DNA of 57,213 nt from Marinilabilia sp. (GCF_016278715.1 NZ_JADQBH010000045.1:1-57213), one strand, 5' to 3'. Shown: positions 38,779 to 57,213, counted from the first letter of the stretch. Notes: a model not told the origin generated them from the sequence alone. Program-made: numbers and translations.

Positions 38779-39261
38779 ATGCCACATACCGGTGAGTACA
38801 TTAAAAAGCTTGCGGAACGTCACGGCCGCCGTCTTGAAAGTTTGCTTCCTATACTGGAAAATGTTTATGAAGACCATCACATTATACCCGAAGATGCAAT
38901 GGTCGAAATCGCCAGGGAATTGGATGTTTCTGCGGCAAAGGTTTATGGCACCGCCACCTTTTACTCGTTTCTTGAAACTTCAAAGGGTGGAAAGTACGTG
39001 ATAAGAGTCTGCAAAACTATTACCTGCATGATGCATGGTAAAAATCAGATAATAAAAGAACTCGAGGAGTTGTTGAAAATAAACCTTGGAGAGACCACGC
39101 CTGACGGTTTGTTTACATTGAAAGAGACCAATTGTCTTGGGCAGTGTCACCGGGGACCGGCAATGCTGATTAACGACACTCCATATACCGAACTTACTCC
39201 CTCGAAAGTGAGAGATATTATTAACGAATACAGGTTGATTGCCCAAAAGTCTGCTTCCTGA
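38779..39261 (+). CDS. NuoE-like [2Fe-2S] subunit of [FeFe]-hydrogenase 1 (HydC-type)
   Basis: VYGTATFYSFLE, CKTITC...CLGQC [2Fe-2S] ligands. Confidence 0.9.
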   Translation: MPHTGEYIKKLAERHGRRLESLLPILENVYEDHHIIPEDAMVEIARELDVSAAKVYGTATFYSFLETSKGGKYVIRVCKTITCMMHGKNQIIKELEELLKINLGETTPDGLFTLKETNCLGQCHRGPAMLINDTPYTELTPSKVRDIINEYRLIAQKSAS

Positions 39262-39316
39262 ATATTGAGTTTTTTTGTCTTTTTGGTAATCCACTACTTA
39301 TTGAAAAATCCAGGTT

Positions 39317-40495
39317 ATGAAGAAAGGTCTTAAACGTCTCGATTTAATATTTAAGAATGAACATGACTGTGATGTTATTCTGAAAAAGTCGTTAAACCGT
39401 TCCAATGAGGAGTTGGTTGAGGATTTGATTAGCTCAGGCCTGAAAGGTCGGGGAGGTGCCGGTTTCCCCACCGGCTTAAAATGGAAACTTACGGCTGAAG
39501 CACCGGGCGACGAAAAGTATGTTATCTGCAATGCCGATGAGGGAGAGCCCGGCACTTTTAAAGACCGCGAGATTCTTTCCAGTGTTCCTCACAAAGTATT
39601 GACAGGAATGGCTATCTGTGGACGCATTGTTGGTGCACAGCGAGGGTTTATTTATTTAAGGGGAGAGTATAAGTTTTTAATCCCCGAACTTCAGAAAGCC
39701 ATCAACGACTTTCATGAGCTTACGGATAAGATGAAACTGCCGTTCCGGGTTGAAATATTTACGGGTGCAGGTGCTTATATATGTGGAGAGGAGTCGGCTC
39801 TGTTCGAAAGTATGGAAGGACACCGCGGTGAACCTCGGAACAAACCACCGTATCCTACCGATGCGGGCTACCGGAACCGACCTACCGTTATAAATAATGT
39901 GGAGACGCTTGCTCATACTTATTCTATTTTAAAATACGGTCCTGAGAAGTTCCGTGATCTGGGTGTTAAAGATAGTCGTGGAAGTAAAGTCTTTTCGGTT
40001 AGTGGGGATACGCCCATTCCCGGAATTTATGAATTGGAGTTTGGAATGACTCTTCAAAAGTTTGTGGACGACTTCGGTGATGGAGATGCAAAGGCGGTAC
40101 AGGTTGGAGGAGCAGCAGGATTTTGTGTGCCCCGGAAGAAGTTCGACAAAACAGTAATCGGGTATCAGGGGAAACTCACCGGTATTAGTTTGCCTACAGG
40201 GGGTTCTATGATGATTTTTAATTCATCGCGCTCCATGTATAATGTTTTGCACAATTATCTTGATTTTTTTGTGGAGGAGAGCTGCGGACAGTGTACTCCC
40301 TGCAGGGTTGGCACTCAACAATTGCTGTTGGGGATAGAAGCTGTCAAGCGGGGCGATAAATCCTCGCAATATCTTGAAAAGCTGCTGGAACTTGCCGAAA
40401 CCATGAGGGTTACTGCAAAGTGTGGGTTGGGACAATCGGTAGCCAACTCCTTTAGTTCCATTGTCGAAAATTTCCGTGAAGAAATGATTTATTAA
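39317..40495 (+). CDS. NuoF-like FMN subunit of [FeFe]-hydrogenase 1 (HydB-type, short form)
   Basis: GLKGRGGAGFPTGLKWKLTAE, CNADEGEPGTFKDR, ESCGQCTPCRVG; lacks N-terminal [2Fe-2S] and C-terminal 2[4Fe-4S] extensions. Confidence 0.92.
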   Translation: MKKGLKRLDLIFKNEHDCDVILKKSLNRSNEELVEDLISSGLKGRGGAGFPTGLKWKLTAEAPGDEKYVICNADEGEPGTFKDREILSSVPHKVLTGMAICGRIVGAQRGFIYLRGEYKFLIPELQKAINDFHELTDKMKLPFRVEIFTGAGAYICGEESALFESMEGHRGEPRNKPPYPTDAGYRNRPTVINNVETLAHTYSILKYGPEKFRDLGVKDSRGSKVFSVSGDTPIPGIYELEFGMTLQKFVDDFGDGDAKAVQVGGAAGFCVPRKKFDKTVIGYQGKLTGISLPTGGSMMIFNSSRSMYNVLHNYLDFFVEESCGQCTPCRVGTQQLLLGIEAVKRGDKSSQYLEKLLELAETMRVTAKCGLGQSVANSFSSIVENFREEMIY

Positions 40496-40517
40496 TCAGG
40501 TTAAATCCGGTTTTGTT

Positions 40518-42308
40518 ATGGACGAGAAAGTAAATCTTAAAATAGACAATCTCAGTGTTTCAGTTGATACAGGGACTACCATACTGGAAGCTGCCCGAAA
40601 AATTAATATCCGAATTCCCACATTATGCCATCATGAGGATTTGTGTGTGGCAGGAAACTGCAGGGTGTGCGTGGTGGAAGAGAGCGGAATGGGGCGTTTG
40701 CAGCCGGCTTGTGCGATTCCCGTTAGTGAAGGGATGGAAATACATACCAATAGCATGAAAGTGCGTAATGCCCGTAAGCAAATTATTGAGTTACTGATTT
40801 CTGAGCATCGGGCCGAGTGTACTACCTGCTACAAAAACGGGAAATGTGAACTCCAGGCTCTTTCCAATGAGTACATCGTGGGAGAAAGTGGCTTTCTTCC
40901 CCTGGTGCCATTGAAAGGGTATACCATAGATGAGTTTTCTCCTTCCATCATCAAGGATGACTCTAAATGCATTCGTTGTCAAAGGTGTGTTAGAACCTGT
41001 GACCAGCTCCAAAGTGTGGGTGCTTTAACAGTTGCTCATAAAGGGGGGGAGATGAAAATTTCCACCTTTTTCGACAAGCCTATTTATGAGGTGGTTTGCA
41101 CCAATTGCGGGCAGTGTGTGAATCGTTGCCCTACAGGAGCGCTAACCGAAAAGACTTACATTAATGAGGTTTGGAATGCCATTGACAATCCTGAAAAATT
41201 TGTGGTGGTTCAAACTGCCCCAGCTGTGAGAATTGCGTTGGGTGAAGCGCTCGATATGGAACCCGGCGAAATTGTTACCGGAAAAATGGTGGCGGCACTT
41301 CGTCGGATGGGTTTCAATGCTGTTTTGGATACCGACTGGTCCGCCGACCTGACCATCATTGAAGAAGGAAATGAACTTCTTCAGCGGCTGAAAAGAGTAT
41401 TGAAAGATAAGGAGCCGGGTGTGAAGATTCCCATGACTACTTCCTGCTCTCCTGGTTGGATAAAATTCATTGAACACACATTTCCAGATTTTCTGGAACA
41501 TCTATCCACCGCCAAATCGCCACAACAAATGTTTGGAGCATTGGCCAAAACTTTTTATGCCGGCAAAATAGGCGTTGAACCTTCTAATATGGTAAGCGTA
41601 TCGGTAATGCCCTGCACCGCTAAAAAGTTTGAAGCCAACAGACCTGAAATGCGTGCAAGTGGCTATCAGGATGTGGATTTTGTGGTCACTACCCGCGAGT
41701 TGGCCATGATGATAAAACAGGCAGGAATTGATTTCCGTTCGTTGCCCGACGACGACTACGACACCATTATGGGTGAGAGCACGGGAGCCAGTGTGATTTT
41801 CGGGGCTACCGGTGGTGTGATGGAAGCTGCTTTAAGAACTGTATACGAAGTAGTTACAGGTCGTGAAATTCCCTTTGACGGACTGAATATCATGCCGGTT
41901 AGAGGAATGGAGAACGTTAGAGAAGCTTCCCTGAAAATTGAAAATCCTTTGCCCGAATGGGACTTTTTGGATGGAGTGGAAGTGAAAACCTGTGTAGCTC
42001 ACGGTTTATCCAACGCCAAAAAGGTGATGGAGCAGGTAAAAAATGGAGAAGCTGACTACCACTTTATCGAAATTATGGCCTGTCCCGGTGGATGCCTGGG
42101 AGGCGGCGGTCAACCGTTGCCAACCTCCCCTGAAATAAGGAAAAAGAGAGCTGAAGCTATTTACAGGGAAGATGCCGGCAAGAAGATTCGGAAATCTCAT
42201 GAGAACCCGGAAATCATTCAGGTTTATGAGGAGTTTTTAGTGGAACCCCTGGGGCACAAGTCCCATGAGTTGCTTCATACCACATATACCCCACGGAACA
42301 GGTATTAG
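40518..42308 (+). CDS. [FeFe]-hydrogenase 1 catalytic subunit (HydA-type)
   Basis: N-terminal [2Fe-2S], HRAECTTCYKNGKC, two 4Fe-4S motifs; H-cluster motifs TTSCSPGW, VMPCTAKKFE, EIMACPGGCLGGGGQP. Confidence 0.95.
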   Translation: MDEKVNLKIDNLSVSVDTGTTILEAARKINIRIPTLCHHEDLCVAGNCRVCVVEESGMGRLQPACAIPVSEGMEIHTNSMKVRNARKQIIELLISEHRAECTTCYKNGKCELQALSNEYIVGESGFLPLVPLKGYTIDEFSPSIIKDDSKCIRCQRCVRTCDQLQSVGALTVAHKGGEMKISTFFDKPIYEVVCTNCGQCVNRCPTGALTEKTYINEVWNAIDNPEKFVVVQTAPAVRIALGEALDMEPGEIVTGKMVAALRRMGFNAVLDTDWSADLTIIEEGNELLQRLKRVLKDKEPGVKIPMTTSCSPGWIKFIEHTFPDFLEHLSTAKSPQQMFGALAKTFYAGKIGVEPSNMVSVSVMPCTAKKFEANRPEMRASGYQDVDFVVTTRELAMMIKQAGIDFRSLPDDDYDTIMGESTGASVIFGATGGVMEAALRTVYEVVTGREIPFDGLNIMPVRGMENVREASLKIENPLPEWDFLDGVEVKTCVAHGLSNAKKVMEQVKNGEADYHFIEIMACPGGCLGGGGQPLPTSPEIRKKRAEAIYREDAGKKIRKSHENPEIIQVYEEFLVEPLGHKSHELLHTTYTPRNRY

Positions 42309-42337
42309 TGATTAAACAAGATTATATGGTTTAACAT

Positions 42338-43120
42338 TTACCCGCAGGGTACATACAAATCATGAAGGGGATTGACAAAAAGAACCGGGGTATTGCCCCG
42401 GTTTTTTAATAACCGGATTTCCGGTGGTCCGGTAAATACATACTCCGGGGAGTTGAGGCGCGTGGCTGGTAGCACCAAAAGACTATCCCTTGAGTTTCCC
42501 GCCATTTCAATGGCTTTTGAACGTGCTTCTTTTCTTTTGCATCCTGCAGGGCAGGTTTCGAAAACCACATTTGACTGGTTGAACAGATTTCTGATAAAGG
42601 CAAGATTTCTTTGCAGGTACTGTTTGGTGGTTTTATTTCTGAATTCCGGATGAATAATGTGTAGTCTGCCCTGATGAGTTCTGGTCCAGAATCCGGCCCA
42701 GGCAGAGGCTTCTTTTTCCCCATCTTGCAGGCACACAGGAAAAAATATGTTTTCGGGACACCACCCGGAGTCAGGGGCATCGGGCAATACCAGATAGGGT
42801 ACTTTCAGGCTTCTGAATTTTGCGAAAAAGTGAGTGGCTTTATTTCGGCTTTTCAGGTTGATTACCTTGGGAGTCAACACCACCAGAGTTACATCGTGTT
42901 CTGTGGAATTCAGAAAGGAGTAGATGGTATGGAAAAAATTCTTGTCGGAATGCTGTACGGTAACCGATGCATGAACGAGTGGGTTTCTGACTTCTTTTTC
43001 GGATTTGTTGTAGGTGAAAGGAATTAATTGATAATCGAGATTTCTGGCAATCCGGGTGCCTGCCGACATTAGTTGGGCCGCGTCATCGTCAGGTGAAATG
43101 GGAAGTAACAGGCTTGCCAT
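42338..43120 (-). CDS. Universal stress protein-like
   Basis: Layout of Usp-like repeats: MASLLLPISPDDDAAQLMSAGTRIARNLDYQLIPF ... TPVLFVNP. Confidence 0.55.
   Translation of the reverse strand: MASLLLPISPDDDAAQLMSAGTRIARNLDYQLIPFTYNKSEKEVRNPLVHASVTVQHSDKNFFHTIYSFLNSTEHDVTLVVLTPKVINLKSRNKATHFFAKFRSLKVPYLVLPDAPDSGWCPENIFFPVCLQDGEKEASAWAGFWTRTHQGRLHIIHPEFRNKTTKQYLQRNLAFIRNLFNQSNVVFETCPAGCKRKEARSKAIEMAGNSRDSLLVLPATRLNSPEYVFTGPPEIRLLKNRGNTPVLFVNPLHDLYVPCG
42384..42407 (+). terminator. Terminator for hydrogenase 1 operon, lying inside the 3' end of the convergent Usp-like CDS
   Basis: ACCGGGG-tattg-CCCCGGT-TTTTT. Confidence 0.8.
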
Positions 43121-43260: not shown

Positions 43261-43521
43261 ATGAGCAATGAAATAGATATGACTATATGTCTGGGGAGCT
43301 CTTGCTTTTCGCGAGGGAACCGTTATACCATGGAGTTGATAAAGAGTTATCTAAAAGAACACGACCTGCAGGACAGGGTATTCTTTCATGGTGACCTTTG
43401 CGACGGGCTTTGCGAACAGGGTCCTGTTTTAAAAATAAACGGAGAGGTATTCCGGAATGTTACCTCAGACAATATTTATGAAGTTCTCAATGATTTTTTC
43501 TCTCGTGAGGATATTGGTTAA
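43261..43521 (+). CDS. Stand-alone thioredoxin-like [2Fe-2S] ferredoxin
   Basis: CLGSSCFSRG ... GDLCDGLCEQGP (Cx4C...Cx3C), 86 aa. Confidence 0.8.
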   Translation: MSNEIDMTICLGSSCFSRGNRYTMELIKSYLKEHDLQDRVFFHGDLCDGLCEQGPVLKINGEVFRNVTSDNIYEVLNDFFSREDIG

Positions 43522-43538
43522 AAACGAATTTGATTTTT

Positions 43539-45404
43539 ATGGCTCAGTTGATTCATGTCGACCCCGAAAAGTGTAATTTAAGTCTTACCTGCATCCGGGT
43601 TTGCCCTGCCAAAGCCATTCGCATTGTTGACAAACATGCAGAAATAATGCCGTCACGGTGTATTGGCTGTGGAAATTGCGTGACTATGTGCGCTCAGAAT
43701 GCCATTGAAGTACGGGACGAGAAACAACGCGTCCGGAATCTTCTTGACGGAGACACACCCGTGGCTGCAATCTGCGACCCTACTATCTCTGCTGAGTTTG
43801 TGGATATCTCCGATTACAGGAAGTTTGTTGGAATGATTCGTTCTCTCGGTTTTTCTTATGTTATGGAGGGTGCTTTTGGGGTGGATTTGGTTTCTTTTCG
43901 TTACCGGGAGTTGCTCTATAACTTCCAGGGGAAATATTACATCAGTACCAACTGTCCGCCTGTTGCTTTACATGTTGAGAAGTACCATCCCGAACTGGTG
44001 GATAATCTGGCCCCCATTGTGCCCCCGTATGTAGCTATGGCAAAGGTTACACATAAGATCTACGGAGCAGGTACTAAAATTGTTTACATCAGCGCTTGTG
44101 CTGCAGCCAAAGATGATGTCCGGTATTTTAAAGGTGACGGCAAAACCGATGCTGTGCTTTCTTTTTTGGAGTTGCGGGAGATGTTCGCGGAGAATCATGT
44201 GACCGAAAACTCGGTTAAATTTAGCGACTTTGACCCGCCAATCGGCAGAAAAGGAGGATTGTTTCCCATCAACCGGGGATTGCTGCAGGCGGTAGATATC
44301 AATCAGGACTTATTGAGTGCGAGTATCATTATGACGGAGGGGCGCAACAATTTTCTGCAGTCTCTTCAGGAGTTTAAGACTGAAAAGGGGCTGCAGCAGC
44401 ATCTTGATCTTTTTTATTGTGAGGGATGTATTATGGGACCATGTACCTCTCCGGGAGGGAAAAAGTTTTACCGGCGTTCTCAGGTGATTAAATATGTCAA
44501 TAAGCGCTTGAAAGATTTTGATTACGAAACATGGCAGAAGCAAATCGAATCATTCAGGGATTTGGATTTGAGCAGATCATTTAAGGAACTGGATCAACGG
44601 TTGCCTTACCCTGCCGAAAGTGAGATTCAACGGGTGTTGCATGAAATGGGTAAAGGCAAAGTGGAAGACCAGCTGGGTTGTGGTGCCTGCGGGTATCCAT
44701 CCTGCCGCGAATTTGCTGTGGCATATTGTCAGGGATTGACCAATTATGAGATGTGCTATACTTATACCATTCATAAGATGCATACATACATTGGAAAACT
44801 AAATGCGACCAATGAAAAACTCAAAAAAACAAAAGAAGCTTTAAAGCAGAGTGAAGAGAAGGCAAGGGAGGAGGAAAAACTAGCTCGTCTGGCTGCCGAA
44901 ACAACTACCGCAATGCTTAATAAAATCAGGGCCGGGGTGGTAATTGTGGATGCAAATATGAAAATCATTGAGTCGAATAACAGTTTTGTTGAAATGCTTG
45001 GCGAAGATGCCCGGCAGATAAACGAAACTATTCCCGGACTCAAAGGCGCTGAGCTGGCTGCCCTGGTGCCATTTCCCAAGCTCTTTTCCTCAGTTTTGCA
45101 GTCGGGGCAGGATTTACTCAACCGAGATACCTCTGTTGGTGACTCAATTGTGAATGTGTCGGTCTTTACCATTGAGAAAAATAAGATTGTAGGAGGCATC
45201 ATTCGTGACCTCACAGCTCCTGAGGTAAGAAAGGAGGAAGTGGTAACCAGAGCCAGAGAGGTGATTCGGGAAAATCTTGAGACTGTGCAGCAGATTGCCT
45301 TTCTTCTGGGCGAAAGTGCTTCTAAAACTGAAAAAATCCTGACCTCCATTATTGAAGCGCAAAAGTTGGGAAGTAGGGATGATTCAGGCATCACTAATAA
45401 ATAA
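43539..45404 (+). CDS. Putative sensory [FeFe]-hydrogenase-like protein (group C-type HydS): 2x[4Fe-4S], H-cluster domain, Fes-type 4Fe-4S, PAS
   Basis: CNLSLTCIRVCPAKAI / CIGCGNCVTMC; STNCPPV, SACAAAK, YCEGCIMGPC; GCGACGYPSC...C; PAS-like RAGVVIVDANMKIIESNNSFVEMLGE. Confidence 0.88.
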   Translation: MAQLIHVDPEKCNLSLTCIRVCPAKAIRIVDKHAEIMPSRCIGCGNCVTMCAQNAIEVRDEKQRVRNLLDGDTPVAAICDPTISAEFVDISDYRKFVGMIRSLGFSYVMEGAFGVDLVSFRYRELLYNFQGKYYISTNCPPVALHVEKYHPELVDNLAPIVPPYVAMAKVTHKIYGAGTKIVYISACAAAKDDVRYFKGDGKTDAVLSFLELREMFAENHVTENSVKFSDFDPPIGRKGGLFPINRGLLQAVDINQDLLSASIIMTEGRNNFLQSLQEFKTEKGLQQHLDLFYCEGCIMGPCTSPGGKKFYRRSQVIKYVNKRLKDFDYETWQKQIESFRDLDLSRSFKELDQRLPYPAESEIQRVLHEMGKGKVEDQLGCGACGYPSCREFAVAYCQGLTNYEMCYTYTIHKMHTYIGKLNATNEKLKKTKEALKQSEEKAREEEKLARLAAETTTAMLNKIRAGVVIVDANMKIIESNNSFVEMLGEDARQINETIPGLKGAELAALVPFPKLFSSVLQSGQDLLNRDTSVGDSIVNVSVFTIEKNKIVGGIIRDLTAPEVRKEEVVTRAREVIRENLETVQQIAFLLGESASKTEKILTSIIEAQKLGSRDDSGITNK

Positions 45405-45424: not shown

Positions 45425-46618
45425 ATGCATTTACCAGAACAGAATATTTATTTGGATATTTTTTGCGAACAGCGTGATCACGAGGGCGAAGCCATCTGTG
45501 GGGACGTTTTTCTTTCCCGGAGGGTACGTGAGGAGGGGAGAACTATCGTTGTATTGTCCGACGGAATGGGCTCTGGAATTAAAGCCAATGTTTTGGCCTC
45601 TCTGACTGCTTCCATGGCCATAAACTTCACTATTGAACACAGGGAAGTGCGGAAAACTGCAGAAATAATAATGAATACTCTGCCGGTTTGTTCCATTCGG
45701 AAAATTAGTTACTCCACATTTACGATTGTAGATATGGAAGACAACGGACAGACCACTATTGTGGAATACGACAATCCATCATGCCTGTTGCTTCGGAACA
45801 ACCGTGAGTTCGACCCGGGCTGGGAAAACCTGGAGCTGGAATCGGAACGTCACAAGGGGAAGATTATTCGAACCTGCAGTTACATGGCCCAGAAGGAGGA
45901 CCGAATTGTGTTCTGGACAGATGGAGTTATTCAGTCAGGAATGGGCACACGTTCTTTCCCTTTTGGATGGGAACGCCGCGGAGCTGTTGGGTATGTGATG
46001 AAAATCCTTGGTAATGAGCCTTATATTTCTGCAACTAAAATGGCCAGAAAAGTCACCAATATGGCCGGGCTGCATGATGGCGAAAGTCCCAAAGATGACA
46101 CTTCTTGTGGTGTGATTTATTTCAGAGAACCCCGAAAATTATTATTGGTGTCAGGGCCCCCCTTTGATGAACGTCACGATCTGGATTTTGCTTTAAAAGT
46201 TCAGCGTTTTAGCGGGAAGAAAATTATTGCTGGAGGAACCACTGCGGAGATCGTGGCCCGAGAACTTGCCCTCAGGTTCGACGCCGGCATGGAGTCTACA
46301 GATCCCGAACTTCCGCCTGTCTCTTATGTGGAGGGCATAAATCTGGTGACTGAAGGGATTCTTACCCTGGGTAAAGTGGCTCGCATTATGGAGAACTACC
46401 ACCGTGACACTAAATTGGGAAATGGTCCGGCCGACCAGATTATCAGAATGCTTCTTGAAAGTGACCGGATTCATGTGTTGAATGGTACCCGGATTAATGT
46501 TGCCCACCAGGATCCCAGTTTGCCTGTAGAACTTGAGATTCGGCGTTCGGTGATTAAGCGTATTGTTCATCTTCTTGAGGAGCGCTTTTTAAAAGAAGTG
46601 GATTTAGAATTTATGTAG
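45425..46618 (+). CDS. SpoIIE/PP2C-type serine/threonine phosphatase with extra C-terminal domain
   Basis: GEAICGDVFL, VLSDGMGSGIKANVLAS, FWTDGVIQSGM, DDTSCGVIYF. Confidence 0.88.
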   Translation: MHLPEQNIYLDIFCEQRDHEGEAICGDVFLSRRVREEGRTIVVLSDGMGSGIKANVLASLTASMAINFTIEHREVRKTAEIIMNTLPVCSIRKISYSTFTIVDMEDNGQTTIVEYDNPSCLLLRNNREFDPGWENLELESERHKGKIIRTCSYMAQKEDRIVFWTDGVIQSGMGTRSFPFGWERRGAVGYVMKILGNEPYISATKMARKVTNMAGLHDGESPKDDTSCGVIYFREPRKLLLVSGPPFDERHDLDFALKVQRFSGKKIIAGGTTAEIVARELALRFDAGMESTDPELPPVSYVEGINLVTEGILTLGKVARIMENYHRDTKLGNGPADQIIRMLLESDRIHVLNGTRINVAHQDPSLPVELEIRRSVIKRIVHLLEERFLKEVDLEFM

Positions 46619-46940
46619 CATTGGCAAGAAAATGCCAAATACTTTTGGCAGGTTTAAGAACAGAGTTTGCTTCATTGTTTTCGCGATGATGGGACTGTGA
46701 TTATTTGAATGAATTGTTAAATAGTTTTAAGTTTGGAAAGAGACTTATTTTTCCGTTAAATAGGATTTTGTTAATGTTATTCTTCATTCCTGCAATAATT
46801 TAGACTAGATATATATTACAAAGCGTGCTTTTTTTTATTTTTTATAGTCGTTAAAAATTGTAGTTTCGTGTATTAATTATTGAAAAAATTCTTTAATCAA
46901 TCAGGTGTCTGTTATGTAATTGATTGTCAGGCACATATTG

Positions 46941-46962: not shown

Positions 46963-47307
46963 ATGAAAATAAGTAGATTACTTGAGGTATTGGACGGAGA
47001 ACTCGTCTGCGGCGAACGGTTTCTGGATAATGAAGTGTTGTGGGGATTCGCAAGTGATTTGATGAGTGATGTTTTGACGCTGGATACGGATAAATTGGTT
47101 CTGGTAACCGGATTAAACAATTTACAAACGATAAGAACTGCTGAAATGGCAGATATTGAGTGTGTTGTGTTTGTCAGAAATAAGAAGATTCTCCCGCCTA
47201 TGATAGAAATTGCCTCGGAGCATGAGATGGTTTTGATTGAGTGTCGCTTTTCCATGTTTGGAGCGATAGCCCGGTTGTATGAGGCCGGGCTGAAGCCTGT
47301 TTATTGA
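46963..47307 (+). CDS. DRTGG-domain protein
   Basis: LLEVLDGELVCGERFLDNEVLWGFASDLMSDVL... Confidence 0.8.
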   Translation: MKISRLLEVLDGELVCGERFLDNEVLWGFASDLMSDVLTLDTDKLVLVTGLNNLQTIRTAEMADIECVVFVRNKKILPPMIEIASEHEMVLIECRFSMFGAIARLYEAGLKPVY

Positions 47308-47450
47308 TTTAGCAATATGAAGCAATAGCTGTTGGTTTTTGGCAAAACCCTTTGGGTTAATTGTTTTTGTTTTAAAGTGTGATTGAGCGAAGATGGTTGA
47401 TGTCAATATGATATAGCTAATCTAGCGTCTAAAAATTTAACCATCTATTG

Positions 47451-47864
47451 ATGAAGTTTAAATATGAAATAGAAGGGGGTAATTTTTCCAAAGCGGGAAA
47501 TGCCAGTAGTGCAGTAAAAAAGATTCTGAAGCAATTGAATGTTCCGCCTGCCATTATCAAAAAACTGGTGGTTGCGCTTTATGAAGGGGAAGTGAATGTG
47601 GTAGCCCATGCCTGGAACGGATGCATTCATGTAGATATAGAGGCTGATCGAATTTTTGTATCAATTGAAGATGAGGGACCGGGTATTCCGGATATCGAAC
47701 AGGCCATGCAGGAGGGATATTCTACTGCTTCTCAGGCGGTGCGGGAAATGGGTTTTGGAGCTGGAATGGGATTACCCAATATGAAAAAGAACGCGGATTA
47801 CCTCAATGTTAAAAGCGAGGTGGGAAAAGGCACCACGGTTGAGATAATAACATTTTTAAAGTAA
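47451..47864 (+). CDS. RsbT/RsbW-like GHKL ATPase (anti-sigma/switch kinase type)
   Basis: ALYEGEVNVVAHAW N-box, EDEGPGIPD, GFGAGMGLPNMKKNAD. Confidence 0.87.
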   Translation: MKFKYEIEGGNFSKAGNASSAVKKILKQLNVPPAIIKKLVVALYEGEVNVVAHAWNGCIHVDIEADRIFVSIEDEGPGIPDIEQAMQEGYSTASQAVREMGFGAGMGLPNMKKNADYLNVKSEVGKGTTVEIITFLK

Positions 47865-47873: not shown

Positions 47874-49262
47874 ATGGTTGAAAGCGGGTTTTATCATGCA
47901 TTAAAGGTTGATGAGGACAAGTGTTTTGGTTGTATCCATTGTATGAATGTTTGTCCTACTGCTGCCATCCGAATTCTTAAAGGCGTAGCGTCCATCAGGC
48001 CCGACTGGTGTGTGGATTGCGGTGAATGTATGCGGGCCTGTCCGGTAGATGCCATTTTTGTGGAACAAGACGATTTCGATAAGATATTTCAATACAAGTG
48101 TCGTGTGGCTTTGGTTCCTGCCGTTCTCATCGGACAATTCCCGGAAAAGGTCACCGAAGCAGAAATTTTCTCCGTAATGCGCGAGCTGGGCTTCACACAT
48201 GTTTTCCAGACAGAGCATACCACAGGAGTAATAACGCGGGCTATGGTTGAGGCTGCCCGCGATGCCGAGGAAAAACCGGCTATCTCCTCTTTTTGTCCGG
48301 CCATCGTGCGATTGGTTCAGATTAAATTTCCCTCTTTGCTGGATCAGGTGTTGGCCATAAAGCCGCCTATTGATGCGTCTGCCGTCTATTTCAGGAAAAG
48401 GTTGGAAGATGAGGGTATCCCATCCGAAGATATTGGTATTTTTTACATTACTCCGTGTGCTGCCAAAATTGCTGCAGTAAAAAGTCCTGTAGGAGAAGAG
48501 AAATCGCCTATCAATGGTGTCATCAATATGAAGTTTATCTACAATAAGATATATAAACTCATTAAATCCAGAAATGAAACCAGCAGTATTTCTCCTGGGG
48601 AGATGCTGCCATTGTTGAGCCCGGGGGCTATAAAATACAGCCTGACCGGCGGTGAAGCTTCCCTGATGGAGGGACGATGCCTGGCCATTGATGAAATCCA
48701 TAATGTTATTGAATTCTTAGAAAAACTGGAGCATGATGAAATTGAGGGGGTTGATTTCTTGGAACTCAGAGCGTGCGACCAAAGTTGTGCCGGCGGAGTT
48801 TTGGTAGGGGGAAACCGGTTTTTAACCACCGAGCGGCTCAATAAACGGGCAAAAAGGTTTGAAGGGGTTGCTGATATTCCCGCGGATATCAAAGCCTACA
48901 CGCATTTTATGGCCAATAATCTGGATATAGGACCGCTGGAACCGCGCTCCATGATGGCGCTGGATCAAGACATGGGGGAAGCTATGCGGAAGATGCAACA
49001 AGTGCGTCATTTGATGTGCTTTTTGCCGGGAATTGATTGTGCGGCCTGCGGAGCCCCTAATTGCCAGAGTCTGGCCGAGGATATTGTGCGAAGAGAAGCT
49101 CAGCTTTCTGCATGTGTCTTTATTCAGAGAATGATGGAGAAGCACAGCAAGTTAAGTGGTGAACATGCACTGAAGATTATTGAAAAGATATGGGGCAAAA
49201 ACCGGCTGGATAAGGATTGTAAGAAAAAAGGGGCCGAAAACGAATCGAATATGGAACTCTGA
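47874..49262 (+). CDS. Putative sensory [FeFe]-hydrogenase-like protein (group D-type): 2x[4Fe-4S], H-cluster domain, Fes-type 4Fe-4S
   Basis: CFGCIHCMNVCPTAAI / CVDCGECMRACPVDAI; SSFCPAI, ITPCAAK, ELRACDQSCAGGVLVGG; CAACGAPNC...C. Confidence 0.88.
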   Translation: MVESGFYHALKVDEDKCFGCIHCMNVCPTAAIRILKGVASIRPDWCVDCGECMRACPVDAIFVEQDDFDKIFQYKCRVALVPAVLIGQFPEKVTEAEIFSVMRELGFTHVFQTEHTTGVITRAMVEAARDAEEKPAISSFCPAIVRLVQIKFPSLLDQVLAIKPPIDASAVYFRKRLEDEGIPSEDIGIFYITPCAAKIAAVKSPVGEEKSPINGVINMKFIYNKIYKLIKSRNETSSISPGEMLPLLSPGAIKYSLTGGEASLMEGRCLAIDEIHNVIEFLEKLEHDEIEGVDFLELRACDQSCAGGVLVGGNRFLTTERLNKRAKRFEGVADIPADIKAYTHFMANNLDIGPLEPRSMMALDQDMGEAMRKMQQVRHLMCFLPGIDCAACGAPNCQSLAEDIVRREAQLSACVFIQRMMEKHSKLSGEHALKIIEKIWGKNRLDKDCKKKGAENESNMEL

Positions 49263-49271: not shown

Positions 49272-49640
49272 ATGTATAGTGACAATCTTAAAAATAGTCT
49301 TATGACTGTAAATGATATCGTTGGTAAATTGAATTTAACCGTTTTTGGAGGAGATAAAGGTCTCAATCGGGAAATTACCGGAGGTTACGTGTCCGACCTG
49401 CTGAGCGATGTGATGGGAAATGCCTCTGAGGGAGAGGTCTGGGTCACGCTGCAAACGCATAAAAATGTGATGGCTGTGGCTTCTCTTAAAGATGTGTCAG
49501 CAGTAATCCTGGTGAAAGGACTGAAACCGGATGAGGATATGCTGGCTCAAAGCAATGAAGAGGATATTCCTGTTCTGGGTACTGAGATGGAGACCTTTGA
49601 ACTGGCAGGTCAACTGTACGGATTGATAAAGAATAGGTAG
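49272..49640 (+). CDS. Second DRTGG-domain-like protein
   Basis: DIVGKLNLTVFGGDKGLNREITGGYVSDLLSDVMGNA. Confidence 0.75.
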   Translation: MYSDNLKNSLMTVNDIVGKLNLTVFGGDKGLNREITGGYVSDLLSDVMGNASEGEVWVTLQTHKNVMAVASLKDVSAVILVKGLKPDEDMLAQSNEEDIPVLGTEMETFELAGQLYGLIKNR

Positions 49641-49642: not shown

Positions 49643-50410
49643 ATGTTGAAGGAATTTCGTGCCGATTTGCATGTTCACACGGTGCTTTCGCCCTGTGGAA
49701 GTCTGGATATGAGTCCGGCACGAATCATTTCCGAAGCAAGACAAAAGCACATTGACATACTGGCCATTACCGATCACAACTCAACCCGTCAATGCAGGGT
49801 GGTAATGGAATTGGGCCGTAAAGCCGGAATTACTGTTTGGGGTGGTGCTGAAATCAATACACGTGAGGAGGTGCATTGTCTGGCATTTTTTGAACAAGAG
49901 ACGGCCCTTGAAGAGTTCCAGCAATGGCTCGACCGATGGTTGGTGAAAATAAAGAATAAGTCCGGCTATTTTGGCGATCAGGTTTGGGTTGATGCAAAGG
50001 ATAATATTTTGGGAGAGGAAGAGTGGTTGCTTATTGCAGCATTAGACAGAACCATTGACCAAAGTTATGAGGAGGTACACCGCCTGGGAGGTGTTTTTGC
50101 TCCGGCCCACATCGATAGGAAAAGCAACAGCCTGAACAGCCAACTGGGATTTGTTCCACCGGATATCCGGGCCGATGCACTGGAGATAAGTCCCTCGGCC
50201 ACATTGGAATTGGTGAGAATGAATGGCTGGAATAAAATAAAACCGCTGATCGCCGGTTCGGATGCCCATCAACCTGAGAGATTAGGATTGAATATGACAC
50301 AATTGAAAATGAAAAATACCAGTCTTGGAGAGTTTAAAAAAGCATTGATTGAAGTGGATGGACGAAGTGTTATTCCTGAAAGATTGCAGGAAACTCCAGG
50401 TTGTCAGTGA
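49643..50410 (+). CDS. PHP-domain metal-dependent phosphoesterase
   Basis: RADLHVHTVLSPCGSLDMSP, AITDHNST, APAHIDR, AGSDAHQPE. Confidence 0.9.
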   Translation: MLKEFRADLHVHTVLSPCGSLDMSPARIISEARQKHIDILAITDHNSTRQCRVVMELGRKAGITVWGGAEINTREEVHCLAFFEQETALEEFQQWLDRWLVKIKNKSGYFGDQVWVDAKDNILGEEEWLLIAALDRTIDQSYEEVHRLGGVFAPAHIDRKSNSLNSQLGFVPPDIRADALEISPSATLELVRMNGWNKIKPLIAGSDAHQPERLGLNMTQLKMKNTSLGEFKKALIEVDGRSVIPERLQETPGCQ

Positions 50411-50481
50411 CCGACCCTGGATGGTGAACTGAAACCAGGTTTTATGAAGTTTATTTGAAAATCCAGTTTTTAAGAAATACC

Positions 50482-51003
50482 ATGAAGGATTTATCTATGC
50501 ATCTACTTGATATTGCTGAGAACTCCATTAAAGCCGGCGCAAAGCAGGTAGAAGTGGAACTCCGGTATGCTGATAATCGTCTGGTTATGACCATCAGCGA
50601 CAATGGATGCGGCATGGATGAAGAGATGGTTAACAGAATTACCGACCCATATATCACTTCGCGCACTTCGCGAAAAGTGGGGTTAGGATTACCCTTTTTG
50701 AAGATGAATGCAGAGCAGACAGGAGGAAACATAATGATTTCATCAGAGCAGGGCCGCGGCACCACTGTGAAAGCAGTGTTTTTGACCGACCACATTGATT
50801 GTGTTCCTCCGGGCGATCTGGCTTCGTCGCTTTCGCTTTTGATGACCGGCAATCCGGAGATCAATTTTGTTATACGATTGATTAAGGACGATGATGCCTT
50901 TGAGGTTTCATCGAATGAAATAAACGAAGTGTTGGAGGGAATTCCCATTTCACACCCAAAAGTCGGGGTGTTTGTCAGAAATATGTTGAAAGAAGAGTTT
51001 TAA
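50482..51003 (+). CDS. GHKL (HATPase_c) ATP-binding protein
   Basis: MHLLDIAENSIKAGA, SDNGCGMDEE, GLGLPFLKMNAEQTGG. Confidence 0.85.
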   Translation: MKDLSMHLLDIAENSIKAGAKQVEVELRYADNRLVMTISDNGCGMDEEMVNRITDPYITSRTSRKVGLGLPFLKMNAEQTGGNIMISSEQGRGTTVKAVFLTDHIDCVPPGDLASSLSLLMTGNPEINFVIRLIKDDDAFEVSSNEINEVLEGIPISHPKVGVFVRNMLKEEF

Positions 51004-51024
51004 GCGTATTAAATACAGTGTGTT

Positions 51025-51423
51025 ATGAGCAAAGTGAAAAATCTTCAGGACCTCAAAAAAATGAGGGACGAACTCAAAGGCAAAATCAACCTTAGAGAAA
51101 AGAGTGACCATCCTGAAAGCATGGTGCAGATTAAAGTTTCGATGGCGACCTGCGGCATAGCCTCAGGCGCGCGTGAAACGATGAATTATATGATTGATGA
51201 ACTGGACAGTCAGGCCATTGATGCCGTTGTTACTCAAACCGGTTGCATGGGGTATTGTTATGCCGAGCCTACCATTGAAGTGACTATGCCCGGTGAAAAA
51301 CCGCTTGTTTTTGGTAATGTAAATACTAAAAAGGCTTCCGAAATCATTGAAAAATATATCAAAAATGGCGAATTGGTGGACGGGATTATTCCTGATAGCT
51401 ACGAAACCATTGATGGTAAATAG
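51025..51423 (+). CDS. Thioredoxin-like ferredoxin-fold protein of hydrogenase operon
   Basis: MATCGIASGARET ... TGCMGYCYAEP; only three Cys. Confidence 0.75.
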   Translation: MSKVKNLQDLKKMRDELKGKINLREKSDHPESMVQIKVSMATCGIASGARETMNYMIDELDSQAIDAVVTQTGCMGYCYAEPTIEVTMPGEKPLVFGNVNTKKASEIIEKYIKNGELVDGIIPDSYETIDGK

Positions 51424-51650: not shown

Positions 51651-53444
51651 ATGGCCAAATACAAAAATCATATCCTTGTTTGTGCAGGTACCGGTTGCCG
51701 GGCCTCTGAGAGCGAAGCCATTGCCGTCAATCTGAAACGTTCAATTGACGAAAACAATCTGGAAAACGACGTTCAGGTAGTGCGTACCGGTTGTTTTGGC
51801 TTTTGCGAAAAGGGACCTGTGGTAAAGATGGTACCCGACAATACTTTTTATGTCCAAGTGACTCCAGACGATGCAGAAGACCTTGTGCTTGAGCACCTGA
51901 TAAAAGGACGGAAAGTGGATCGCTTACTTTATGTGGATCCCGAAACCAAAGAACAAGTGAGTGATTCCAAACACATGGATTTCTATAAGAAACAGATTCG
52001 CATTGCGCTCAGAAACTGCGGTTTTATCAATCCCGAAAATATTGACGAATACATAGCCCGCGACGGTTACAGTGCGCTGGGTACTATTCTGGATGAGATG
52101 TCGCCCGAATCAGCTATTAAGATAATTAAGGACTCGGGTCTTCGGGGAAGAGGAGGTGGTGGTTTTCCAACAGGCCTTAAGTGGGAAATTACCCGGAAAT
52201 CGGAATCTGATCAGAAGTATGTGGTTTGTAATGCTGACGAAGGGGATCCAGGGGCATTTATGGATCGCTCTATTCTGGAAGGCGACCCCCATTCAGTATT
52301 GGAAGCGATGGCAATTTGTGGGTATTGCATTGGTGCCGATTCCGGGTTGATTTACATCCGTGCGGAGTATCCGTTAGCCATCAAACGTTTAAAGGTTGCC
52401 ATTAATCAGGCCCGCGAATATGGCTTGCTGGGGAACGATATCTTCGGTTCAGGATTTTGTTTCGATGTGGAAATCCGTTATGGTGCCGGAGCTTTTGTGT
52501 GCGGTGAGGAAACGGCACTGATTCATTCTATGGAAGGGTTGCGTGGAGAACCCACCGTGAAACCGCCTTTCCCTTCGGTTAGTGGCTATAAAGGAAAACC
52601 CACCAACGTCAACAATGTGGAGACTTTTGCCAATATCCCTGCCATTTTTCTGAAGGGGGCTGATTGGTTCAGACAGATTGGAACGGAGAAAAGTTCCGGA
52701 ACCAAGGTTTTTGCGTTGGCGGGAAAAGTCAACAATGTGGGACTGATTGAGGTTCCGATGGGAACTACTTTGCGCGAGGTGATTTTTGATATCGGCGGAG
52801 GCATCAAAGGCGGAAAGAAATTTAAAGCGGTTCAGACAGGAGGTCCGTCAGGTGGCTGTTTGACTGAACATCACCTGGATTTGCCTATTGATTATGACAG
52901 TTTGATTGCCAGCGGTTCCATGATGGGCTCGGGAGGCATGATTGTGATGGACGAGGACGACTGCATGGTTTCGGTAGCCAAGTTCTATCTTGATTTTACC
53001 GTGGAAGAGAGTTGCGGTAAATGTACCCCCTGCCGTATTGGAAACAAGCGACTTTACGAATTGCTCGAAAAGATAACCCTGGGTAAAGGGGATGAGGGAG
53101 ATTTGACCCGGTTGCGTAATCTGGGCAATGTAATTAAGGATACGGCGCTCTGTGGATTGGGCCAGACATCACCTAACCCGGTACTTTCGACCATGGACAA
53201 TTTCCCCGAGGAATATGAAGCTCACGTGAAGGAGAGTAAATGTCCTGCCGGTCAGTGCCGGGCGCTGATGCAATATGTTGTCAGTCCCAAGCTTTGTACC
53301 GGTTGTACATTATGTGCACGTGTTTGTCCGGTGGATGCCATTTCGGGTGATAAGAAAATGCCGCATTTTATCAATACTTCCATCTGTATAAAGTGTGGTG
53401 CCTGTATGGATAAGTGTAAGTTTGGTGCCATCAGCATTCAATAA
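51651..53444 (+). CDS. HydB-type subunit of [FeFe]-hydrogenase 2 (TRX-like [2Fe-2S] + NuoF + 2[4Fe-4S])
   Basis: CAGTGCRASES...CFGFC; RGRGGGGFPTGLKWEI; ESCGKCTPCRIG; CTGCTLCARVCPVDAI / CIKCGACMDKCKFGAI. Confidence 0.94.
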   Translation: MAKYKNHILVCAGTGCRASESEAIAVNLKRSIDENNLENDVQVVRTGCFGFCEKGPVVKMVPDNTFYVQVTPDDAEDLVLEHLIKGRKVDRLLYVDPETKEQVSDSKHMDFYKKQIRIALRNCGFINPENIDEYIARDGYSALGTILDEMSPESAIKIIKDSGLRGRGGGGFPTGLKWEITRKSESDQKYVVCNADEGDPGAFMDRSILEGDPHSVLEAMAICGYCIGADSGLIYIRAEYPLAIKRLKVAINQAREYGLLGNDIFGSGFCFDVEIRYGAGAFVCGEETALIHSMEGLRGEPTVKPPFPSVSGYKGKPTNVNNVETFANIPAIFLKGADWFRQIGTEKSSGTKVFALAGKVNNVGLIEVPMGTTLREVIFDIGGGIKGGKKFKAVQTGGPSGGCLTEHHLDLPIDYDSLIASGSMMGSGGMIVMDEDDCMVSVAKFYLDFTVEESCGKCTPCRIGNKRLYELLEKITLGKGDEGDLTRLRNLGNVIKDTALCGLGQTSPNPVLSTMDNFPEEYEAHVKESKCPAGQCRALMQYVVSPKLCTGCTLCARVCPVDAISGDKKMPHFINTSICIKCGACMDKCKFGAISIQ

Positions 53445-53477
53445 ATCGGGTCTGAAATTTTGAAAAAATAACGAGTT

Positions 53478-55247
53478 ATGAACTTAGCTAAGTTAACCAT
53501 TGATAATAAGCCGGTAGTTGTGGAAAAGGGAACTACGGTTCTTGAAGCTGCCAAATCTATCGGCATCAAAATTCCATCTTTGTGCTATATGAAGATGGAC
53601 GATATGAATTTTGAGAATAAACCGGGTGGTTGCCGGGTTTGTGTAGTCGAAGTGGAAGGACGACGCAATCTGGCTCCTGCCTGCAAAACCGAATGTACCG
53701 ACGGTATGGTGGTCAATACGCATACGGTTCGGGTGGTAAATGCCCGTCGTACTGTTGTGGAATTGATATTGTCCGACCACCCCGCGGAGTGTCTTACCTG
53801 TGCCAAATCCGGGGAGTGCGAACTGCAGGACCTCGCGCAAAATCTTGGTATCCGTGAAATTCATTATACAGGAGAACAGTCGCATTACAAAGGCGACCAG
53901 TCGCCTGCCATTATTCGCGAGATGGACAAATGCATCATGTGCCGCCGATGTGAGACTGCTTGTAATGAGGTTCAGACCGTGGGTGTTTTGTCGGCCGTGA
54001 ACCGTGGATTCGAATCGGTTGTGGCGCCGGCTTTTGAAATGGACCTTGACCATTCAGTTTGCACATACTGTGGTCAGTGCGTAGCTGTTTGTCCCACCGG
54101 GGCATTGACCGAAAGAGATTATACCTGGAAAGTTATTGAGGCTTTAGTCAACCCCAACAAAACGGTGGTGGTGCAAACGGCTCCTGCCGTTCGTGCCGCG
54201 TTAGGAGAATCATTCGGGATGGAACCCGGCTCTTTGGTTACCGGAAAGATGGTTTCCGCCCTTCGAAAATTGGGATTTGATTATGTTTTTGATACCGATT
54301 TTGCAGCCGATTTGACCATTATGGAAGAGGGAACCGAACTGCTGGACCGCCTGAGCCGCCATTTGAGTGGAGATAAGGAGGTTAAACTACCTATTCTGAC
54401 CAGTTGTTGTCCCGGTTGGGTGAAGTTTTTTGAGCATCAGTTTCCTGAAATGATGGATGTGCCATCTACAGCCAAGTCGCCCCAGCAGATGTTCGGCTCC
54501 ATTGCAAAGTCTTATTTTGCAAAAAAAATGAACAAGAAGCGCGAGGATTTAGTGGTGGTTTCGGTAATGCCTTGTCTGGCAAAAAAATATGAGTGTACCC
54601 GCGAAGAGTTCTCTGTAAACGGCGATCCCGATGTGAATGTTTCTATCTCAACAAGAGAACTGGCTCAGCTTATACGTAATGCCAATCTGGATTTTGCTTC
54701 ACTTCCGGATGAAGACTTTGACCAGCCTTTGGGCGAATCTTCAGGAGCAGCGGTGATTTTCGGAACAACAGGAGGGGTTATTGAGGCAGCGGTGCGAACT
54801 GCTTATGAGTTGCATACCGGAAAACATCTGGAAAAAGTTGATTTCAAAGAGTTGCGGGGAATGGAAGGTTCACGGAAAGCGACTGTCGATTTTGACGGTT
54901 TAAAACTCAATATTGGTATTGCTCATGGATTAGGAAATGCCCGAAAGCTGCTGGAAGAAGTCAAGTCCGGAAAGTCGGAGTTCCATGCCATCGAAATTAT
55001 GGCGTGTCCCGGCGGTTGCATCGGCGGAGGCGGTCAGCCTTATCATCACGGAAATGTGGATATTCTTAAGAAACGTCAACGGGCTATTTATGAAGAGGAT
55101 AAAGGGAAACCTATACGTAAGTCGCATGATAACCCGTTTATTCAGGTTTTGTATAAAGAATTTCTGGGGAAACCAATGAGTGATTTATCACACGAATTAC
55201 TACATACACACTATTTTGACCGTAAGAAAAAAGCTGAAGTTGAATAG
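53478..55247 (+). CDS. [FeFe]-hydrogenase 2 catalytic subunit (HydA-type)
   Basis: HPAECLTCAKSGEC; TSCCPGW, VMPCLAKKYE, EIMACPGGCIGGGGQP. Confidence 0.96.
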   Translation: MNLAKLTIDNKPVVVEKGTTVLEAAKSIGIKIPSLCYMKMDDMNFENKPGGCRVCVVEVEGRRNLAPACKTECTDGMVVNTHTVRVVNARRTVVELILSDHPAECLTCAKSGECELQDLAQNLGIREIHYTGEQSHYKGDQSPAIIREMDKCIMCRRCETACNEVQTVGVLSAVNRGFESVVAPAFEMDLDHSVCTYCGQCVAVCPTGALTERDYTWKVIEALVNPNKTVVVQTAPAVRAALGESFGMEPGSLVTGKMVSALRKLGFDYVFDTDFAADLTIMEEGTELLDRLSRHLSGDKEVKLPILTSCCPGWVKFFEHQFPEMMDVPSTAKSPQQMFGSIAKSYFAKKMNKKREDLVVVSVMPCLAKKYECTREEFSVNGDPDVNVSISTRELAQLIRNANLDFASLPDEDFDQPLGESSGAAVIFGTTGGVIEAAVRTAYELHTGKHLEKVDFKELRGMEGSRKATVDFDGLKLNIGIAHGLGNARKLLEEVKSGKSEFHAIEIMACPGGCIGGGGQPYHHGNVDILKKRQRAIYEEDKGKPIRKSHDNPFIQVLYKEFLGKPMSDLSHELLHTHYFDRKKKAEVE

Positions 55248-55300
55248 GTTTGTAACGAGTTGATAACTGTTCATTGATAATTTGATAACTGAAAAATGTT

Positions 55301-55774
55301 ATGGCAAAAATAAAAATACCCGAAAATAAGGTTCAGGAATTGAAGGACTTGTGCGCCCAATTCAAAAATGAACCCGGCGAATTGATTAACGTATTGCATG
55401 GAGCCCAGGGAATGTTTGGCTACCTGCCTGCCGAAGTGCAGGAAATTGTGGCAGAGGGAATGAATGTCTCTTTAGCCCATGTGTATGGTGTGGTTACATT
55501 TTATTCGTTTTTTTCAATGTTGCCCAAAGGAAAACATCCCATCTCCATTTGTATGGGAACTGCCTGCTATGTGAGGGGAGCGGAAAAGGTGTTGGATGAG
55601 TTTAAGCGTCATTTGGATGTGAAAGTTGGCGATACCACTCCTGACGGGAAATTCTCCCTGAGTTGTTTGCGTTGCGTGGGAGCCTGTGGACTGGCCCCGG
55701 TGGTGACCATCGGAGAGCGCGTTTACGGACGTGTTTCGCCGGAAGATGTAAAAGGGATTCTCGGAGAGTATTAA
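55301..55774 (+). CDS. NuoE-like [2Fe-2S] subunit of [FeFe]-hydrogenase 2 (HydC-type)
   Basis: VYGVVTFYSFFSM, CMGTAC...CLRCVGAC. Confidence 0.93.
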   Translation: MAKIKIPENKVQELKDLCAQFKNEPGELINVLHGAQGMFGYLPAEVQEIVAEGMNVSLAHVYGVVTFYSFFSMLPKGKHPISICMGTACYVRGAEKVLDEFKRHLDVKVGDTTPDGKFSLSCLRCVGACGLAPVVTIGERVYGRVSPEDVKGILGEY

Positions 55775-55793
55775 ATTTCAGGAGCGGCGAAGT

Positions 55794-55850
55794 AGGAGTG
55801 GCGGATTCCGGTCTGCCTTTTGCTACTGCGGATCGGAACCCGCCGCTCCT
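55794..55850. repeat. REP-like imperfect palindrome between hydC-like gene and hydG
   Basis: AGGAGTGGCGGATTCCGGTCTGCC opposed by GCGGATCGGAACCCGCCGCTCCT. Confidence 0.65.
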
Positions 55851-55919
55851 ATAAAAAACCGTAAAACCTTTCCGAAAACACCACATTCATCGTACCTTTA
55901 ATCCCTTAAAGGTTTTGTT

Positions 55920-57213
55920 ATGTCCGTAATTTATCATCCTCAGAAATATAAGATTGATGATCGTCCCATGCAGAATTTTATTGATTCTGATGAGATTTGG
56001 GAGACTCTGAAGCGGAATGAGAATCCCGCAAGGGAAAGGGTGCGTGAGGTCATTGCCCGTTCGCTGGATAAGCATCGTTTGTCGATGGATGAAACGGCCG
56101 TATTGATCAATGCCAATACGCCCGAACTCATTGAAGAAATTAAGAATGGTGCTCGTGAGCTGAAAGAGCGGGTTTACGGAAAGCGGATTGTCTTGTTTGC
56201 ACCTCTTTACATCGGAAACCTTTGCGTAAATAATTGTGCGTACTGTGGCTTCCGTACTGAAAATAAGAAGCAGAAGAGGATTACGCTATCTTCCGATGAA
56301 ATCAGGGCAGAGGTGGAAATGCTGGAGAATTCCGGTCATAAGCGTTTGATACTTGTTTTCGGAGAACACCCCAAATACGATGCTGAATTTATTGCCGAAA
56401 CGGTACGCAATGTGTATAGTGTAAAAAAAGGCAATGGAGAAATCCGGCGGGTCAATATCAACGCCGCCCCCATGAACTTGGAGGATTTCAAAATTGTGAA
56501 GGATGCAGGAATCGGTACTTATCAGGTATTCCAGGAGACCTACGAGCGCAATGCTTATCTGAAAGTGCATTTGGGCGGAAAGAAACGTGATTATGACTGG
56601 CGGATTACTGCATTGGACCGTGCCCAGGAAGCCGGAATCGACGATGTGGGAATTGGTGCCTTGATGGGGCTTTACGATTGGCGATTCGAGGTATTGGGCT
56701 TGTTGAGACATGTCAACCACTTTGAGGCAGTTTATAAGGTGGGGCCCCATACCATATCATTTCCACGCCTCAAGCAGGCTTCCGGTTTTGATGTGAAGCC
56801 GGAATTCGAGGTAAGTGATGAGGAGTTTACCCGTCTGGTGGCCATTCTTCGTCTGGCAGTTCCTTACACAGGATTGATTCTTACCGCCCGCGAACCTGCA
56901 CACATTCGTGATGAGGTTCTTCAATATGGCGTATCACAGATAGATGGCGGTACCAACATTGAGATGAAGGGCTATTCGTCCCGAAAAGACAAACAGGATC
57001 TTGACCATGAGCAATTTACTATTGGGGATAACCGCACCTTGAATGAAGTGATGGAAGAACTCCTGGGGCATGGTTATTTGCCCTCGTTTTGCACTGCTTG
57101 TTACCGGTTGAAACGAACGGGGGAGCATTTCATGGAATTTTCTGTTCCTGGGTTTATTAAGCGCTTTTGTCAGCCCAATGCCATGCTCACTTTGGCCGAA
57201 TATCTGGAAGATT
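55920..57213 (+). CDS. hydG: [FeFe]-hydrogenase H-cluster radical SAM maturase HydG (truncated by window end)
   Basis: Start MSVIYHPQKYKIDDRPMQNFID; CVNNCAYC radical-SAM motif; C-terminal CTACYRLKRTGEHFMEF...KRFC; absent from ORF track because it runs off the end. Confidence 0.94.
   Translation, partial: MSVIYHPQKYKIDDRPMQNFIDSDEIWETLKRNENPARERVREVIARSLDKHRLSMDETAVLINANTPELIEEIKNGARELKERVYGKRIVLFAPLYIGNLCVNNCAYCGFRTENKKQKRITLSSDEIRAEVEMLENSGHKRLILVFGEHPKYDAEFIAETVRNVYSVKKGNGEIRRVNINAAPMNLEDFKIVKDAGIGTYQVFQETYERNAYLKVHLGGKKRDYDWRITALDRAQEAGIDDVGIGALMGLYDWRFEVLGLLRHVNHFEAVYKVGPHTISFPRLKQASGFDVKPEFEVSDEEFTRLVAILRLAVPYTGLILTAREPAHIRDEVLQYGVSQIDGGTNIEMKGYSSRKDKQDLDHEQFTIGDNRTLNEVMEELLGHGYLPSFCTACYRLKRTGEHFMEFSVPGFIKRFCQPNAMLTLAEYLED

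Follow-up and report, generated by a model that had tools for sequence, protein, structure and literature searches.

The window analysed here, the whole 57,213-nt stretch of DNA, comes from Marinilabilia (Bacteroidales; contig C137 of a 4.95-Mb genome), and within its positions 38779-57212 lies an island that encodes four proteins with an [FeFe]-hydrogenase H-cluster domain, two of them catalytic and two of them putative sensors, each putative sensor standing in a gene cassette of fixed composition. The island bears on the question of how putative sensory [FeFe]-hydrogenases relay their signal. As a preliminary description of the sequence had proposed, Fe_hyd_lg_C matches are found at all four open reading frames (40518, 43530, 47874 and 53478; E-values 1e-22 to 1e-95, Pfam/NCBIfam), and the L1 loops, read off an alignment with CpI, are indeed TSCSPGW, STNCPPV, SSFCPAI and TSCCPGW. 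The accessory genes it named, which are a SpoIIE phosphatase, an RsbT/W-like ATPase, a second GHKL ATPase, two DRTGG proteins, a PHP protein and HydG, are likewise all present, HydG being cut by the contig end (Table 1). All open reading frames of the island are on the + strand, the sole exception being a 260-amino-acid gene between its two halves.

Table 1. Features of the Marinilabilia island, in window coordinates
Feature	Position	Strand	Evidence
HydC1, NuoE-like thioredoxin [2Fe-2S] subunit	38779..39261	+	PF01257 3e-46
HydB1, short NuoF-like subunit, non-bifurcating signature	39317..40495	+	PMC7311640 criteria
HydA1, catalytic group A, L1 TSCSPGW	40518..42308	+	NF040763 881 bits
260-amino-acid protein, UspA-like by eye only	42338..43120	-	no Pfam match; recurs beside C/D modules
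Small thioredoxin-like [2Fe-2S] protein, group C module	43261..43521	+	PF01257 5e-8; conserved next to group C
Group C (HydS/HfsB-type) putative H-cluster sensor	43530..45404	+	PF02906 6e-28; Cx2Cx4Cx16C at residue 384
SpoIIE/RsbX-type PP2C phosphatase	45425..46618	+	PF07228 3e-8; RsbX 3w40 7e-4
Bacteroidota-type promoter-like sequence TTTG-N-TAnnTTTG, weak	46704..46735	+	upstream of D module
DRTGG1, stand-alone DRTGG-fold protein	46963..47307	+	AlphaFold pLDDT 96; 2ioj TM 0.83
RsbT/SpoIIAB-like GHKL ATPase, putative Ser/Thr kinase	47448..47864	+	HATPase_c_2 2e-10; PDB SpoIIAB 5e-9
Group D (M2e, TamHydS-type) putative H-cluster sensor	47874..49262	+	PF02906 1e-22; Cx2Cx4Cx16C at residue 389
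DRTGG2	49272..49640	+	PF07085 4e-6
PHP-domain protein	49643..50410	+	PF02811 2e-7
Second GHKL ATPase	50455..51003	+	PF02518 2e-17
HndB-like [2Fe-2S] protein	51025..51423	+	weak PF01257; directly before HydB2 in Bacteroidales loci
HydB2 (HndC-like), full-length, bifurcating signature GGPSG	51651..53444	+	A. woodii HydB 7q4v E 1e-256
HydA2 (HndD-like), catalytic group A, TSCCPGW	53478..55247	+	NF040763 912 bits
HydC2 (HndA-like)	55301..55774	+	PF01257 2e-48
HydG maturase, cut by contig end	55920..57212	+	TIGR03955 472 bits

Two catalytic enzymes

HydB1 and HydB2 were typed on alignments with T. maritima HydB, using the published criteria (and that protein's numbering) for telling bifurcating from non-bifurcating enzymes (PMC7311640); the third position of the scheme (367) is off our own count of the chain, and both nearby aromatic positions lead to the same answer. 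HydB1 has T/K at 232/234, GGAAG in place of GGPSG, Y in place of F and no extra Fe-S domains, whereas HydB2 has A/M at 232/234, GGPSG, F and the full extra Fe-S domains, so that the bifurcating features are found in HydABC2 and not in HydABC1. By these published criteria HydABC1 is of the NADH-only, non-bifurcating type and HydABC2 of the bifurcating type. Two full HydABC-type hydrogenases had been described; this needs a correction for the first set, in which HydB1 is without the N-terminal 2Fe-2S and C-terminal 2x4Fe-4S parts. The HndB-like protein is probably a fourth subunit of the bifurcating enzyme, which would make that complex Hnd-like.

Our tree of 72 H-domains groups HydA1 and HydA2 with CpI, T. 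kivui HydA1 and A. woodii HydA1. At the place of the ligand C300, HydA1 and its orthologues carry Ser, as does A. woodii HydA1. That this Ser-for-Cys replacement makes HydA1 a dead enzyme was considered and rejected, because A. woodii HydA1 (7q4v) shares the loop and the orthologues in relatives retain it. Of the maturases, HydE and HydF are encoded outside the island, on contigs C31 and C223 respectively.

Intergenic gaps are mostly 2-55 bases inside the cassettes and widen to 344 and 140 bases on the two sides of DRTGG1 and to 227 before HydB2. This pattern suggests at least three transcription units: one for HydCBA1, one for the C cassette and one for the D cassette, the last of which may or may not include HydBAC2. 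The promoter-like pattern TTTG-N-TAnnTTTG occurs three times in the window against 2.5 expected by chance, so the match at 46704 is well placed and not above chance; scans for consensus promoters and terminators also stayed at chance level, and an Rfam scan of the island gave no match.

Two putative sensors and their cassettes

The two remaining H-cluster-domain proteins separate from the group A pair in the tree and by their motifs, and the expectation of two catalysts, one group C protein and one group D protein agrees with tree, motifs and domains alike, the tree being our own set of 72 H-domains that contains no reference group C or D sequence. In the alignment with CpI the group C protein keeps all four H-cluster Cys and has N in place of C299. 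Its C-terminal Cx2Cx4Cx16C motif is followed by a PAS-like domain (E-value 4e-4 for the isolated domain, just under the Pfam cut-off), the SpoIIE/PP2C phosphatase is encoded next to it, and its clade in the tree also contains histidine-kinase-fused proteins. An AlphaFold model of the full protein (pLDDT 41, nine close sequences) was too poor to confirm the PAS domain and was not used. The C-terminal ~160 amino acids of the SpoIIE protein (46139-46618) matched no Pfam family.

The group D protein also keeps the four H-cluster Cys; it has F in place of C299, a hydroxyl residue (T) in place of M353 and R at 497, and is built of two N-terminal 4Fe-4S motifs, the H-domain and the Cx2Cx4Cx16C motif, with no PAS domain. 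It forms a clade of its own apart from groups A, C and B-like in the tree, from which TamHydS is absent. Loss of C299 and the Cx2Cx4Cx16C motif have both been described for putative sensors of groups C and D (PMC8163306; PMC10055695). TamHydS, the group D (M2e) protein of Thermoanaerobacter mathranii, differs in having Leu at 497, and the set of DRTGG1, RsbT, DRTGG2, PHP and GHKL genes around the Marinilabilia protein is, as far as checked, not described for it.

Within this set, DRTGG1 gives only a weak PucR match by sequence search, while its predicted structure matches 2ioj best and HPr kinase structures next; the segment FASDLMSDVLT is near-invariant. A HisKA domain was not detected in the second GHKL ATPase.

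Conservation of the cassettes

Synteny was followed in 80 Bacteroidales loci collected by similarity to the group D protein. DRTGG1-RsbT-D is complete and in the same order in every one of them, and DRTGG2-PHP-GHKL keeps its order in each of the 67 loci that contain all three genes; in 51 of these it comes immediately behind D, and in 16, mostly from rumen lineages, it lies upstream. HydBAC2 follows the D cassette in 48 of the 80 loci, and neither HydABC1 nor HydBAC2 was seen in 29, some of which are explained by contig ends. One rumen-lineage locus (L106, 10001-11380) has the D cassette, and the 10 kb on either side of it contain no hydrogenase; its neighbours are NqrA-like and fumarase-like genes upstream and a ribosomal S1-like gene downstream.

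The C cassette ([2Fe-2S], C, SpoIIE) lies directly before the D cassette in 12 of 12 Marinilabiliaceae loci, with C between the two enzymes wherever both flanks are present. In Marinifilaceae and Lentimicrobium-like loci it is absent from the corresponding spot and is located elsewhere in the genome. Group C is flanked by SpoIIE in the loci where its flanks are covered, and the anticipated pairing of C with SpoIIE and of D with RsbT and DRTGG across genomes holds. Two Marinifilaceae loci (L182 and L183, in G371 and G368) have a tandem SpoIIE-C-[2Fe-2S]-SpoIIE-C arrangement in which the second C protein is only ~33% identical. At another locus (L038; G031 C21, 54248-56092, - strand) the group C protein beside SpoIIE is without all four H-cluster Cys and may be a sensor that has lost cofactor binding.

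Across 344 Bacteroidales genomes, D was found in 113, full-length C in 111 and both in 78, an odds ratio of 13 by Fisher's test that is not corrected for shared descent. For 14 of these 78 genomes the two are on a single contig and no more than 30 kb apart; most of the others have them on different contigs of fragmented assemblies. Larger islands also occur: in G113, G099 and G291 a single island comprises HydCBA1, the D cassette, HydBAC2 and SpoIIE-C divergent from a third HydCBA; in G113 and G099 a histidine-kinase-fused group C protein comes next after this third set. Islands of this larger kind (L151/L152, L155/L156 and L160) hold three HydABC-type sets each, all with group D and phosphatase-linked group C, and L152 and L156 additionally have the histidine-kinase-fused protein. 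The Marinilabilia layout had been thought unusual, which was wrong: it is standard in Marinilabiliaceae and is exceeded in size in other Bacteroidales.

The comparison also changes how the regulatory genes are to be grouped. Because SpoIIE travels with C, RsbT with DRTGG1 and D, and each DRTGG protein with one GHKL ATPase, the single phosphatase/kinase module that had been drawn falls apart into two separable modules. A partner switch in the strict sense, also proposed at first, is not supported, since the locus encodes no STAS protein and the fold of DRTGG1 is that of DRTGG proteins, not of STAS. The locus resembles Rsb/SpoIIA modules in its RsbT/SpoIIAB-like ATPase and SpoIIE/RsbX-like phosphatase, that is, by homology, in a GHKL serine kinase and a PP2C phosphatase, and differs from them in encoding neither a STAS antagonist nor a sigma factor. 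No STAS protein was found in the window, and six STAS matches lie elsewhere in the genome, at least one of them in a short stand-alone frame. These matches, with the kinase-like and phosphatase components in place, would allow a classical partner switch that uses an unlinked STAS protein, which we regard as improbable given that SpoIIE and RsbT belong to different cassettes, that STAS is missing at the locus and that RsbT is invariably accompanied by a DRTGG-fold protein.

Candidate roles in H2 and redox signalling

We favour, with a probability of about 0.6, a reading in which the two enzymes are tuned in level or activity to H2 and redox state by two independent sensor cassettes. HydABC1 would exchange electrons with NADH only, and HydABC2 with the HndB-like protein would bifurcate between NADH and ferredoxin. 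The H-cluster of group C would bind H2 or report redox state, and its signal would pass through the C-terminal [4Fe-4S] cluster to the PAS-like domain and determine how active the PP2C phosphatase is. In the D cassette, the state of group D would act on the RsbT-like kinase, whose partners or substrates would be the DRTGG proteins instead of STAS proteins. Jointly, the amount or activity of each enzyme would follow H2 pressure and the NADH/ferredoxin redox state. With both sensor classes neighbouring one NADH-only and one bifurcating enzyme, the cell could favour either enzyme according to the prevailing H2 pressure. We infer this signal path, the kinase substrates and the two enzymes as targets; the role of the D cassette is deduced from synteny, and that of the C cassette by analogy with published work on group C and phosphatase in other organisms.

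In Thermoanaerobacterium saccharolyticum, hfsABCD likewise has a PAS-bearing HfsB, with the serine phosphatase HfsC directly after it, next to a catalytic [FeFe]-hydrogenase (PMC11837493, PMC5707799), and deletion of hfsB altered adhE expression and product yields (PMC5707799), with further support for a regulatory role in PMC11837493. There, however, the catalytic partner HfsD is ferredoxin-linked, whereas the catalysts flanking the Marinilabilia sensors are HydABC complexes, HydABC1 and HydABC2, and a D cassette is added. The HydA2/HydS cluster of Ruminococcus albus also pairs a group C sensor bearing PAS with a Ser/Thr phosphatase and is H2-regulated, being 111-fold lower in co-culture with an H2 consumer (PMC6776011); it differs in containing an alcohol dehydrogenase and a group A1 enzyme, and group D is not reported for it. 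The effect on adhE and the alcohol dehydrogenase within the R. albus cluster would fit a division of targets in which C and SpoIIE regulate fermentation genes elsewhere, leaving the adjacent bifurcating enzyme under the control of the D cassette alone, as would the separate positions and orientations of the two units and the place of D ahead of HydBAC2 in most loci. Such a division is conceivable, yet we consider it clearly the less probable arrangement, as C adjoins the D cassette in all 12 Marinilabiliaceae loci, between both enzymes where the flanks are present, and T. maritima HydS sits in a hydrogenase operon (PMC10055695).

For group D, the most informative relative is G545. A phylum sample of 297 genomes has D in two besides the window's own, G545 and G553, where the full D module with HydC, HndB-like and HydB genes (L180, G545 C8 110000-129900; L181, G553 C87 3000-22900) has as neighbours HdrABC, Vhu/Mvh-type [NiFe] subunits and an HdrA2-like fusion that contains no H-domain. 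G545 is 99% complete, and D is its sole PF02906 protein; of the maturases HydE, HydF and HydG, the search there covered HydG, which was not found. Group D may therefore sense redox in G545, although its four H-cluster Cys are all kept. G553 has a group A protein and yet no HydG match, so the absence of HydG may be incomplete or the maturase divergent. A further caution against the argument from G545, that Syntrophomonas is without HydEFG, was dropped because the literature shows that it has them.

The G545 case lends some weight to the view that group D is, through its Fe-S clusters, a redox sensor for NAD-linked bifurcating complexes generally and not an H2 sensor. We hold this to be possible, with the odds against it: purified TamHydS bears an H-cluster and reacts with H2 at raised affinity (PMC8163306), the window protein retains the four Cys as the G545 protein does, and the window genome encodes HydE, HydF and HydG. 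A more specific form is rather doubtful, namely that the D cassette is a general redox governor of such complexes, [FeFe] or [NiFe], acting through a STAS-less relay of two GHKL ATPases with DRTGG partners and working in lineages like G545 without the [2Fe] part of the H-cluster. If confirmed, the G545 case would set redox sensing by group D proteins apart from H2 sensing.

The DRTGG, GHKL and PHP genes track the HydB/HydC/HndB set even with a [NiFe] catalytic subunit, as would also be expected if they served the assembly or maturation of bifurcating Hyd complexes. Some GHKL proteins are ATP-driven chaperones, and the kinase substrates of the signalling reading are hypothetical. We nevertheless think it unlikely that these genes are maturation factors and not a signalling relay, because the closest solved relatives of the RsbT-like protein are SpoIIAB kinases and the cassette is also found with no hydrogenase within 10 kb.

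Several observations weigh against the tuning of both enzymes by two sensor cassettes. Neither a DNA-binding protein nor a sigma factor nor a STAS protein is encoded in the locus, so a route to transcription is missing from it. The many rumen loci with a D cassette and no hydrogenase within 10 kb, of which L106 is an example, indicate that adjacency is not obligatory, and since hfsB acts on genes elsewhere, targets need not be local. Finally, the G545 protein, without a detectable HydG, means that H2 binding is not assured for every group D protein.

Sensor hydrogenases next to hydrogenase operons are already known (PMC8163306, PMC3492117, PMC10055695), and in Petrimonas a group C1 sensor has been noted near Hnd (PMC7768429). 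In Clostridium thermocellum, phosphatases, kinases and PAS/PAC sensors are encoded upstream of two HydABC sets (Cthe_0340-0342 and Cthe_0428-0430; PMC3492117), at two separate loci, whereas both enzymes and both sensor classes are contiguous in Marinilabilia. Among the papers searched, none links DRTGG with sensory hydrogenases; the only match for DRTGG together with hydrogenase is a D. vulgaris mutant study that mentions each once. The combination is built from known parts, is common in its group and is, as far as checked, undescribed as a unit. Its fixed cassettes point to likely partners, SpoIIE for C and the RsbT-like protein with DRTGG1 for D, and the cultured genera Marinilabilia, Anaerophaga and Labilibacter are suited to testing them.

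The window genome has a fifth hydrogenase, monomeric and of group B type, on contig C293 (TIGR04105, 510 bits). In Marinilabiliaceae the poorly conserved protein of 42338-43120 recurs next to the C module, and in Marinifilaceae it is found upstream of the D module.

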